This document shows, piece by piece, positions 35,474-44,504 of a stretch of 61,655 nucleotides of DNA. The stretch comes from an uncultured archaeon. Its GTDB lineage: Archaea; Halobacteriota; Methanosarcinia; Methanosarcinales; Methanoperedenaceae. The notes beneath the pieces are model-generated. The model was not told the origin of the DNA. It searched no databases and saw only the letters and a program-made list of their open reading frames with translations. The position numbers and the translations under genes were made by a program. Position 1 is the first letter of the stretch. The number at the start of each line of letters is the position of its first letter. The stretch lies in the NCBI GenBank assembly GCA_902384525.1, contig CABMCA010000101.1, forward strand, positions 1 to 61,655, in the 5' to 3' direction.

Positions 35474-36256
35474 ATGGGTTCAATCAATTGGAAAGTATAC
35501 TTTATTTTAATAAGTTCATGTATAATCATATCTTCAGCAAATGCTATCGATTATCCAGATGAGCGACCTTCAATTGAATCCGGAAAAAATATCTATCTAT
35601 CGAACTGTGCGGGATGCCATGGTGAAAAAGGGGATGGATCAACTTTTTCTGGCGCTTTCAATTTCACAAACAGCGAAAAGATAATCAACTCCAATTCGTC
35701 AATATTTTTTGATGCGATAACAAATGGAATTCCAGGAACTGCTATGTCATCTTTTAGCAAACTTCCAAAAAAAGACAGATGGGATGTTATAGCATATCTC
35801 TGGACTTTCTGGATCGACAGGCAATCAGCAGAAAATGGGAAAATGATCTATGTGAAAAACTGTGCAGGATGTCACGGCATGCTGGGAAATGGATATGGTT
35901 TTCCCGAGGCTTTTGATTTTACGAATTTAAGCCAGACAGCATCAAAGCAACCATCCGTTTTTTTTGATCGTTTAACCCAGGGCATCCCCGGGACAGCTAT
36001 GCGCTCATATAAGAGCGACCTGACTGAAAATGAACGCTGGGATGCCGTAAAATATCTATTCACATTCCAGTTCAGTGATTATCAGTTCCCAGTACCTCAA
36101 ATTACTCAGCCCCAAATCACTCCCGCGACAACAAAACCTCAATACTCCGGGAAGGAATGGTATAATACAACAGGCGGTGGCGCAATAATTTTAGTTTCAG
36201 CAGGGTTGGCGATTTTTATATTATATCTTTTTATAAGGGGGCTTAAAGAAAGATGA
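35474..36256 (+). CDS. Dihaem cytochrome c, membrane-anchored
   Basis: This 260-residue exported protein has a signal peptide (to Ala ~24), two class I cytochrome c domains (NCAGCHGEKGDG near residue 43 and NCAGCHGMLGNG near residue 132, each with a distal Met in GTAMSSF and GTAMRSY) and a C-terminal TM helix (residues ~235-255). Electron transfer on the outer face of the membrane is expected. Its stop overlaps the NorC-like start by four bases (ATGA), so it is likely the electron feeder of the NO reductase encoded next. Confidence 0.9.
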   Translation: MGSINWKVYFILISSCIIISSANAIDYPDERPSIESGKNIYLSNCAGCHGEKGDGSTFSGAFNFTNSEKIINSNSSIFFDAITNGIPGTAMSSFSKLPKKDRWDVIAYLWTFWIDRQSAENGKMIYVKNCAGCHGMLGNGYGFPEAFDFTNLSQTASKQPSVFFDRLTQGIPGTAMRSYKSDLTENERWDAVKYLFTFQFSDYQFPVPQITQPQITPATTKPQYSGKEWYNTTGGGAIILVSAGLAIFILYLFIRGLKER

Positions 36257-36834
36257 ACAATAACCGGCTCATATTGATCGGGCTTCTTATCCCTGCAATT
36301 CTTATGATCCCGTTTAGCATAATCTCATTCTACACGGATTTTGCCAACAGGAATCCTGATCCTTTATCTGTAACTGTTGATTTTGATCAAAACGCATACA
36401 ATGCAGTTGAAGGAAAGAAAGCTTTCGAGCAGTACCAGTGCATGGACTGCCATACCATCGTAGGGAATGGGGCATATTTCGCACCTGACCTGACCACGGT
36501 TTATAAAAGAATAGGAGAAAATGACGCAGCACTTTCTAATTTTATTCTTTCAGGTGCATCCGCAAAGGGTATGCAGCCAATGCGGGATCGAGGCATGACA
36601 GAAGACGATGCTTACAGGATAACCGCTTTTTTGAAATATGCAAATATGCTTGATACCAACGGCTGGCCTGGCGCCGGTTCATGGGAGAGGGACGGTAATC
36701 CGGACAGTACGTCAGCAAAAAAACTGGATTTTTTCGATATCTGGCAGGTAGTGTCAGGGATCGTATTTATAAACGTGCTGATATTTGCGATAATTCTTGC
36801 TTATGAGAATAAGAAAAATGACAGGGAGGCTTGA
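36253..36834 (+). CDS. norC: NorC-like monohaem cytochrome c subunit
   Basis: This 193-residue protein has an N-terminal TM helix (residues ~5-27). One haem c site, QCMDCHTIVGNGAYFAPDLT, lies near residue 57 and a Met ligand in GMQPM near residue 113. An additional C-terminal TM helix (~165-187) is not found in the ~150-residue bacterial NorC. The EGKKAFEQYQC lead-in is the NorC pattern. NorC passes electrons to the haem b of NorB. It is translationally coupled to both neighbours. Confidence 0.88.
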   Translation: MNNNRLILIGLLIPAILMIPFSIISFYTDFANRNPDPLSVTVDFDQNAYNAVEGKKAFEQYQCMDCHTIVGNGAYFAPDLTTVYKRIGENDAALSNFILSGASAKGMQPMRDRGMTEDDAYRITAFLKYANMLDTNGWPGAGSWERDGNPDSTSAKKLDFFDIWQVVSGIVFINVLIFAIILAYENKKNDREA

Positions 36835-36839
36835 GACGA

Positions 36840-38216
36840 ATGAGTGAATATCCATCAAAAATAAAAACAAGAAAATACTTCATTACAGCTATCCTGCTAT
36901 TTATTGTCCAGATGCTTCTTGGTCTTATAATGAGCGTTGATGTCCTTGCAAGAGACTCTTCAACAAATCTGCCTTTGACATTTGATATTCTAAAAGCGCT
37001 TCATCTCAATTTAATGGTACTCTGGCTGCTTCTTGGATTTATTGGCGGCCTGTATTATCTGCTTCCGGCTGAGGCCGGACGCGATATAAAGCATCCGCGT
37101 TTGATCGATATCCAGTTCTGGTCCCTTCTTCTTATTGGCATCGGGATCATCATCTCTGAGATTTTCTTCACAGGAAGGAACTGGTGGCTGGTAGAAGGAA
37201 GAGAATACCTGGAAGCTGGAAGATTCTGGGATATCCTTCTCACAGCGGGACTTTTAAGCGTTGTTTACAATGTGATCGCTACGATTTTTGAAAGCAGGAA
37301 CAAATTAAGTTCTCCCATTCTTGTCCTTGCTGCAGGCGCTATAGGCTCGATATTAATGTATGTTCCCGGTGAAATATGGTTTGACAGCATTGTAGCTGCC
37401 GAATATTTCAGGTGGTGGGTAGTTCACTACTGGGTCGAGGCTTCATTTGAATTAATAGCAGCAGGAGTAATAGCACTTATTCTCCTGGCAATGACGCAGG
37501 TGCGCCGTGAAATAATTGAAAAATACCTGGCAATTGAAGTCGCACTCATTCTTCTTACAGGAATAATCGGGCAGGGCCATCATTATTACTGGATCGGGAC
37601 ACCAGGCATCTGGATTTTCCTTGGCGGACTTTTTAGCGCACTTGAACCTGTTCCTCTTTTCCTTATGGTCTGGTCGGCATATAAAGACCTGAAAGAGAAC
37701 AAAAAACCTATCCCGAATAAAGTTGTGCTTTACATGATCATCGGAGCTACACTCGGGAACTTTGTTGGAGCAGGGCTGTGGGGCTTCATCCATACGTTGC
37801 CGCAGATCAATTTCTTCACTCACGGAACCCAGATAACGTCATCACACGCACATTTTGCTACTCCTGGCACATATCTGTTACTCGTTATTGGAATTGCGTA
37901 TCTTGCAATCCCGGAAATATCCGGAAGATTGGACTTTTCACACTACAGGGGTAAAATCGGGTTCTGGCTTCTTGTTATTGGTTTTTTGAATATGATAATC
38001 GCATTGATGATAGCAGGGGTCATCCAGGTATACCAGCAAAGGATCGAGGGTTTGAGTTTCATGAGCGTCCAGAATACTCTATTTCCGTATTTTGAATGGC
38101 GATTAATTGGCGGGTTGATCGCCTTTGCTGGAGGATTGCTGATAGCGTATGATCTTATTTTGATAAGCACAATAAAAGTAAAAACTGAACGAAATAATAT
38201 AAATAAGGAGATTTAA
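36840..38216 (+). CDS. norB: Nitric oxide reductase catalytic subunit NorB (cNOR type)
   Basis: This 458-residue haem-copper-superfamily protein with ~12 TM helices reduces 2 NO to N2O. Counting from ATG 36840 (GGGAGG site upstream): His55 for low-spin haem; His196 with Glu200 and Glu204 in HYWVEASFE; His247/His248 in GQGHHYYW; Glu269; His336/His338 in SSHAHFATPGTY. Intervals 196-247-269-336 (51, 22 and 67) equal those of Pseudomonas cNOR (207-258-280-347), as does the four-residue step to Glu211. No cross-linked Tyr of oxygen reductases is present. TTG 36831 is an alternative start. The M24 peptidase gene follows after one base. Confidence 0.92.
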   Translation: MSEYPSKIKTRKYFITAILLFIVQMLLGLIMSVDVLARDSSTNLPLTFDILKALHLNLMVLWLLLGFIGGLYYLLPAEAGRDIKHPRLIDIQFWSLLLIGIGIIISEIFFTGRNWWLVEGREYLEAGRFWDILLTAGLLSVVYNVIATIFESRNKLSSPILVLAAGAIGSILMYVPGEIWFDSIVAAEYFRWWVVHYWVEASFELIAAGVIALILLAMTQVRREIIEKYLAIEVALILLTGIIGQGHHYYWIGTPGIWIFLGGLFSALEPVPLFLMVWSAYKDLKENKKPIPNKVVLYMIIGATLGNFVGAGLWGFIHTLPQINFFTHGTQITSSHAHFATPGTYLLLVIGIAYLAIPEISGRLDFSHYRGKIGFWLLVIGFLNMIIALMIAGVIQVYQQRIEGLSFMSVQNTLFPYFEWRLIGGLIAFAGGLLIAYDLILISTIKVKTERNNINKEI

Positions 38217-43306: not shown

Positions 43307-43612
43307 ATGTTTGTAAATATTGTTCAATTCCCACCAGTTAGAAAGGGAAAAGATGAGGAATTCAGGAAATGGTTTGCCTGGTCAAATGCAGTATATGAGA
43401 AATTTGATGGATTTATATCAAGGCGGCTTTTAAAACCAACCAATGATAAGAAAAACTATGCTGCGATCGTTGAACATGAAAGTGAAGAAACCTTCATGGC
43501 TATGCACTTAAGCGATGAGCGTCAAACTGCATGGGAAAAGGTTGAGCCATTGCTGGAAGGATCGCCAACACCCGGTTTCTATGAGGTAATAATAACTTCA
43601 GAAAAGAAATGA
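43307..43612 (+). CDS. Antibiotic biosynthesis monooxygenase (ABM) domain protein
   Basis: This 101-residue ferredoxin-like-fold protein (FVNIVQFPPVRKGKDEEFRK, WSNAVYEKFDGFISRRLLKP, ESEETFMAMHLS) is of the ABM/HemS-like superfamily. Members act as cofactor-free oxygenases or haem-degrading enzymes. Dimerisation is typical. It is eight bases from the CDF exporter gene, suggesting a joint transcript. The substrate is unknown. Confidence 0.82.
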   Translation: MFVNIVQFPPVRKGKDEEFRKWFAWSNAVYEKFDGFISRRLLKPTNDKKNYAAIVEHESEETFMAMHLSDERQTAWEKVEPLLEGSPTPGFYEVIITSEKK

Positions 43613-43619
43613 TGCATAA

Positions 43620-44504
43620 ATGAGTTACGCAACTGACTCCTCGCAGGAAAGCGATATTCGAGCATTGAAGATAGTAGTGGGAGATTATATCCTGATTTTT
43701 GTCATGAAACTGGCAGTATATTTTATGACCGGAGTCATGGCCATTTTTGCCGAAGCGCTGCACACTCTTAGCGACATCTTCGTGTCAAGCTTCCTGCTTT
43801 TGGCGTTAATATATTCGCGCAGGCAAGCCGATGTGGTACACATGTTCGGTTACGGCCGGGCGCAGAATGTGGCTGCCCTGGTGGCTGCAACTCTATTTAT
43901 TTCATTCACCAGTTTCGAACTATACAGGGAAGCAATCCCAAAACTCTTTGCGCCTGAAGCAGTGAGCTATCAGAACCTCAACCTGGCTCTGGGAGTGCTT
44001 ATCATATCGATGTTTATTGCAGGAATTCCCCTGATAAACATGTTCAGGCAAAAAAAGCATGGAGCTGCTGCCAGAGCACAGCTCACTGAGTTATTCAATG
44101 ACGAACTGGGTCTGCTGGCTGCGCTTATAGGCACAATATTCATTATTCAGGGAGAATACATCGCTGACCCGATTGCCTCTATAGTAGTTGCTACCATAAT
44201 AGCTTACAACGCCATAGGGCTGTTCAGGGAGAACTTAAGCTTCTTGCTGGGGCGTTCACCCGGACCCGAATTATTAAAAAATGTTGAGAATCTGGCCCTT
44301 TCGGTAGAAGGTGTAATGGGAGTACATGAAATACGCGCTGAGTATATCGGACCTGATACTATTCATTTGGGGATGCATATCGACGTGCTAAAAGGGACCC
44401 CTATTGAAGAGGCAGCCCGCATAGCAGAGGAAGTACGAATGCGGGTACATGAATCTATAAAGGGAGGTTATTGTTTCATTCACATGGATGCAGCAATACC
44501 ATGA
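43620..44504 (+). CDS. Cation diffusion facilitator (CDF) metal exporter
   Basis: This 294-residue protein with six TM helices exports Zn2+, Fe2+, Mn2+ or similar by proton antiport. Metal-site motifs are ALHTLSDIFVSSFLLLALIY (H-x3-D) and FNDELGLLAALIG. A VHMFGYGRAQNVAALVAA loop and a C-terminal cytoplasmic ferredoxin-like domain (GVMGVHEIRAEYIGPDTIHL) follow the CDF plan. The transmembrane site reads H-D/N-D-like, so the metal cannot be named from sequence. Confidence 0.92.
   Translation: MSYATDSSQESDIRALKIVVGDYILIFVMKLAVYFMTGVMAIFAEALHTLSDIFVSSFLLLALIYSRRQADVVHMFGYGRAQNVAALVAATLFISFTSFELYREAIPKLFAPEAVSYQNLNLALGVLIISMFIAGIPLINMFRQKKHGAAARAQLTELFNDELGLLAALIGTIFIIQGEYIADPIASIVVATIIAYNAIGLFRENLSFLLGRSPGPELLKNVENLALSVEGVMGVHEIRAEYIGPDTIHLGMHIDVLKGTPIEEAARIAEEVRMRVHESIKGGYCFIHMDAAIP

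Follow-up and report, generated by a model that had tools for sequence, protein, structure and literature searches.

The window, a stretch of 61,655 nucleotides from a Methanoperedenaceae genome, was found to contain three open reading frames, lying in one direction and encoding a dihaem cytochrome c, NorC and NorB, in that order (Table 1). In the alignment of orthologues the NorB proteins begin with M-x-x-YPS, and ATG 36840 is the best start of norB. The earlier note had described a NorC-like monohaem cytochrome and an extra dihaem cytochrome c ahead of NorB, joined by four-base overlaps. Both frames were found, and the 4-base overlap between the dihaem gene and norC is certain; that between norC and norB arises only with TTG 36831, and with ATG 36840 a gap of 5 bases is present instead.

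Table 1. Features of the nor locus and its neighbourhood (positions in the window)
Feature	Coordinates	Strand	Length	Remarks
dihaem cytochrome c gene	35474-36256	+	260 aa	
norC	36253-36834	+	193 aa	
norB	36840-38216	+	458 aa	from ATG 36840; alternative start TTG 36831
ABM-domain protein	43307-43612	+		PF03992 6.9e-6
CDF cation-efflux protein	43620-44504	+		PF01545 9.4e-38

NorB, numbered from ATG 36840, contained H55, H196, E200, E204, H247, H248, E269, H336 and H338, all at the positions named in the earlier note, and these nine ligand and active-site residues were invariant in the aligned bacterial and archaeal cNOR-type sequences. E122 and E125 are the counterparts of E135 and E138 of Pseudomonas aeruginosa. 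The phmmer alignment with 3o0r_B (E 5.5e-84) was without gaps from H196 to H338; the intervals are therefore the same as those of the Pseudomonas residues 207, 211, 215, 258, 259, 280, 347 and 349, as had been claimed. Among the PDB sequence matches the cNORs 3o0r_B and 4xyd_A came first, followed by the qNORs, with cbb3 far behind (286 bits to cNOR vs. 43 to CcoN). NorB contained 12 hydrophobic segments, consistent with about 12 membrane helices. Its AlphaFold2 model (pLDDT 77.7, pTM 0.82) gave 3o0r_B as the best Foldseek match (E 2.0e-19, TMq 0.80), and the top two matches were the cNORs 3o0r_B and 4xyd_A, well ahead of qNOR and cbb3. NorB begins at the first core helix, without a qNOR-type N-terminal domain, and the Pfam search found no match to PF22085 in it. 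A qNOR identity was rejected on its length, the missing fused N-terminal domain and the restriction of PF22085 to the qNOR that relatives encode separately. The identification of the protein as a cNOR-type NO reductase, proposed in the earlier note, is well supported by the sequence, the residues, the NorC partner, the predicted fold and the conservation of the operon.

The host genome is 2.92 Mb long, with mcrA on contig C42 and the operon on contig C101. By NorB, the closest named relatives are Ca. Methanoperedens BLZ2 and METP1 (92-94% identical). Given mcrA and this closeness, the host is a Ca. Methanoperedens and an anaerobic methanotroph, not the methanogen-type archaeon that had been supposed. 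Orthologous NorB, 73-94% identical, was found in 10 other genomes among the 34 family genomes searched, and the isolate B4-08 also carries it. The order dihaem gene-norC-norB was kept in all 11 complete nor+ family genomes and in B4-08. The dN/dS ratios against three close relatives were 0.13-0.14 for norB, 0.20-0.34 for norC and 0.24-0.36 for the dihaem gene, by which measure all three genes are under purifying selection. With the same order in 10 other genomes of the family and in B4-08, and with purifying selection, the arrangement is not due to chance, and the sequence comparison indicates a real and functional three-gene operon. A viral or mobile origin was rejected: the close-relative search found no NorB relative among viral contigs, and the operon lies within a chromosomal block common to G021 and METP1. 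In G427 (L126, C282) the dihaem gene adjoins a CDF fragment, norC is lacking and the NorB match spans only 35 residues; this looks like a remnant from gene loss or an assembly error. The association tests (12 nor+, 22 nor-) treated this genome as nor+. In FeB_1, from an iron enrichment (L043:7995-10568), NorB was fused to a hydrophobic C-terminal part of about 400 aa, for which no Pfam or NCBIfam match was found.

ABM and CDF genes were present beside nor in many relatives (L099, L101, L103, L104, L105). The ABM gene adjoins nor in Mnv1 and FeB_1 and the CDF gene is next to nor in G021, G008, G004, G009 and G020; in the window the ABM gene is parted from nor by a TetR/ABC block. A close CDF orthologue was found in 8/12 nor+ genomes (one a remnant) vs. 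3/22 nor- genomes (Fisher p 0.005). The link of these genes to NOR is uncertain, and a supply of metal for FeB by them is only a thought. In L011 (G036:C163), from another family of the order, the end of a multihaem cytochrome (HAO-like by eye), ABM and CDF run into the C-terminal third of NorB, which is either a deletion fusion or an assembly chimera.

NorC matched 3o0r_C (E 1.9e-12) and 4xyd_B (E 5.4e-10) in the PDB. The alignment showed an invariant CxxCH motif and Met107 and a conserved DTNGWP motif. Two hydrophobic segments correspond to N- and C-terminal membrane helices, of which the C-terminal one is common to other archaeal NorCs and absent from the bacterial NorCs aligned. The dihaem protein was found to contain a signal peptide, two class-I cytochrome c domains (PF13442 1.6e-25; PF00034 1.1e-22) and a C-terminal membrane helix, with hydrophobic segments at 1-22 and 231-259. 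Its haem sites are CAGCH with Met91 and CAGCH with Met176, and neither the CxxCH motifs nor the candidate Met ligands varied among 9 orthologues. Wherever it was readable, the dihaem gene stood at the head of the operon; in two loci, Mnv1 and LFW-280, the frame was incomplete, one of them at a contig end.

We regard the dihaem protein as a putative electron-entry subunit of the NOR. It could also be a co-transcribed carrier that works separately, for example with nitrate reductase or in metal reduction. The genome's own cbb3-like fusion has similar cytochrome c domains at its C-terminus (25%), and bacterial iron permeases contain them too (the cytochrome domains of the latter were among the best plasmid matches, none covering 80% of the dihaem protein); the dihaem gene also evolves faster than norB. 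However, it overlaps norC and leads the operon wherever readable, and an extra c-type haem is found at further archaeal norCB loci as well, so that a separate carrier appears unlikely. The accessory c-type haems elsewhere in archaeal norCB support an electron-delivery role for the dihaem protein, without proving it. A bolder reading, which we put forward tentatively, is that the Methanoperedenaceae cNOR is a distinct lineage and a three-subunit, three-haem-c unit (dihaem protein, two-helix NorC and NorB) whose maturation would need neither NorQ nor NorD and whose extra haems would wire NO reduction to the cytochromes of extracellular electron transfer. If so, accessory c-type haems would recur among archaeal cNORs.

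The 34 family genomes searched yielded no true NirK or NirS. NosZ had no match in the host genome, and the matches elsewhere were short cupredoxin-like proteins. True NrfA was present in four family genomes, the host genome not among them, and canonical NarG, among the family genomes searched, only in BLZ2 and METP1. At L096:7396-12605 (G000:C77) the host genome contained a NarGHJ-like operon, assigned to the type II DMSO reductase family by TIGR03479 (1045 bits, above cut-off); it encodes proteins of 932, 346 and 222 aa and is distinct from the canonical narGH of BLZ2 and METP1. This operon may encode a nitrate reductase, which makes nitrate respiration possible. Thus, of the mcr, nar/nrf and nos genes for which the earlier note had suggested a check, mcrA and the NarGHJ-like operon were found, and true NrfA and NosZ were not. 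A Nar-like gene was present in 5/12 nor+ and 11/22 nor- genomes (Fisher p 0.73; three Nar-like types counted as classified by us, with MAG incompleteness as a limit), and a link of nor to nitrate respiration by co-occurrence was rejected. The nor+ genomes G021, G008 (MnB_21) and G004 (RBG1) contained none of the three Nar types counted. No match to qNOR was found in the host genome; in BLZ2, METP1 and Mnv1 a second NOR, a qNOR of 753-755 aa, lies near Nar genes (L108, L109, L110), with canonical narGH and nrf genes as neighbours in BLZ2 and METP1 and a 1157-aa Nar-like gene in Mnv1.

We infer the following path. Electrons from the c-type cytochromes of the cell would pass to the membrane-anchored dihaem cytochrome c, from there through haem c of NorC and haem b of NorB (H55/H338 side) to the haem b3-FeB site of NorB (H336; H196, H247, H248, E200), where 2 NO + 2 e- + 2 H+ would give N2O + H2O at the outer membrane face. 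The enzyme would serve mainly to remove NO that arises outside the cell or as a side product when nitrite is reduced, rather than to support denitrifying growth. As one reading, a cNOR with this electron path that reduces NO to N2O mainly for detoxification is probable. Detoxification is favoured because no NirK, NirS, NosZ or true NrfA was found in the genome and because some relatives carry norB but no nitrate reductase, and the published rise of norB and norC with nitrite (PMC11337218) agrees with it; removal of NO from an outside source or side reactions probably fits the gene pattern better than a denitrification chain does. Of the two roles suggested in the earlier note, a link between C1 metabolism and N-oxides or NO detoxification, the second is therefore upheld and methane-coupled denitrification fits less well. 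The NarGHJ-like operon, the modestly supported deep placement of NorB, the undetected NorD and the published community-wide decrease of norB transcripts after NO and sulfide exposure (PMC8906906) weigh against the favoured reading.

The enzyme might instead act within a partial denitrification coupled to methane (nitrate to nitrite to NO to N2O) that supports energy metabolism. The cell's own NarGHJ-like operon, its plentiful c-type cytochromes and the position of the second NOR of BLZ2 and METP1 near narGH and nrf genes agree with such a respiratory role, but NirK and NirS were not found in the family genomes searched, nor NosZ in the host genome, and nor is independent of Nar across genomes. 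cNOR itself is not known to conserve energy. We consider a respiratory role improbable, and detoxification of NO stays the preferred reading.

The NorB tree was built from 41 rows, among which were only seven bacterial cNORs. The NorBs of Methanoperedens formed one clade (100/100), apart from the haloarchaeal and Methanoperedens qNORs, the Archaeoglobi-Thermoproteota type and the genome's own cbb3-like protein. Their clade was sister to the bacterial cNORs with modest support (86/54), and the AU test rejected neither the joining of NorB to other archaeal NORs (p 0.26) nor to the qNORs (p 0.11). This tree position makes NorB a NOR and not an oxidase; the phylogeny that the earlier note had suggested as a check excludes the oxidases, with the genome's own cbb3-like protein beyond a 100/100 branch. 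A cbb3 or other O2 reductase was rejected on this branch, and an NO dismutase (Nod) because all ligands are intact and the fused N-terminal domain is absent; NOD carries replaced FeB ligands. That NorB is one of these two kinds of haem-copper superfamily protein, O2 reductase or NO dismutase, is highly improbable: it shares PF00115 with the oxidases and matches CcoN weakly, and the true cbb3-like fusion shows that haem-copper proteins are in use, but E200 (the FeB glutamate), E204, E269 and H247/H248 are intact, NorC is present, the PDB score is far higher for cNOR and the cbb3-like protein is far off in the tree.

The cbb3-like protein of the host genome (L002:1477-4116; G000:C2:64477-65796) is a fusion, 879 aa long, that joins CcoN, CcoO and two additional cytochrome c domains. 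About 10 family members, and some genomes from a second family (f5) of the order, contained similar cbb3 fusion frames of 880-990 aa. Membrane proteins of 135-145 aa that resemble one third of CcoN/NorB and contain H-x-H were present at L003:1357-1767, L004:1387-1824 and L125:6744-7151.

The earlier note had implied that a NOR in such an archaeon is surprising. The accessible text of two previous studies already reports norBC in the genus: Dalcin Martins et al. (2022) described a transcribed cNOR norBC, and also a qNOR, in Ca. M. nitroreducens, where after exposure to NO and sulfide norB transcripts decreased community-wide and the qNOR transcript increased (PMC8906906), and Echeveste Medrano et al. 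(2024) found norB and norC increased under salt stress with nitrite accumulation, interpreted as a nitrosative stress response (PMC11337218). norB is variable among Methanoperedens MAGs (PMC11264602). The accessible portions of PMC4683180 and PMC7327174 contain no mention of NO reductase. Since norBC was already known in Methanoperedens, the surprise is limited, and the novelty lies only in the architecture of three genes and in its lineage. A conserved dihaem subunit, a NorC with two helices and the lack of a detectable NorD seem to be undescribed in the open-licence literature. In freshwater rich in nitrate, Methanoperedens is a major sink for methane. With an active operon these archaea could convert NO to the stronger greenhouse gas N2O, and no N2O-removing enzyme was detectable in the host genome. 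The conserved dihaem subunit offers a testable route for methane-derived electrons to NO.

In comparison with known systems, the norBC genes of PMC8906906 and PMC11337218 belong to the same genus and to the cNOR type and are putative orthologues of the present genes; the accessible text names norB and norC alone, without the dihaem gene, gene order or residues. The bacterial cNORs (Pseudomonas aeruginosa 3o0r, Roseobacter denitrificans 4xyd) have the same NorB size, about 12 helices, ligand set and spacing, the same monohaem NorC with CxxCH/Met and DTN-WP and likewise no qNOR-type N-terminal domain, but their NorB is only 36% identical. The Methanoperedens operon adds the dihaem cytochrome gene and the C-terminal NorC helix. 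In contrast to the bacterial operons, no norQ or norD adjoins it, and the host genome gave no match to NorD (one bacterial query, without a positive control). In Paracoccus, FeB insertion requires NorQ/NorD (PMC9976466).

The qNORs of Methanoperedens and haloarchaea share the haem-copper NOR core (about 32% identical) but are single chains of 750-780 aa with the N-terminal cytochrome-like domain PF22085 and form their own clade (100/100). The NorCBs of Archaeoglobus/Ferroglobus, Pyrohabitans, Pyrodictiaceae and Nitrososphaeria likewise contained a two-helix NorC and the full His set, with an accessory c-type haem in several; their NorBs are 33-37% identical, 543-595 aa long, carry a C-terminal extension and form a distinct clade (100/100). 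The second haem lies inside NorC in Pyrodictiaceae, and a separate monohaem cytochrome c was found upstream of norCB in Nitrososphaeria (L053) and downstream of it in Archaeoglobus (L046). In Archaeoglobi norB is followed by a farnesyltransferase-like gene (UbiA/COX10-type, by eye). The norC-norB of Thermus thermophilus NorCB(H) (L059; NorB 35% identical) is likewise without adjacent norQ/norD, and a small third gene follows norB there instead of the dihaem cytochrome.
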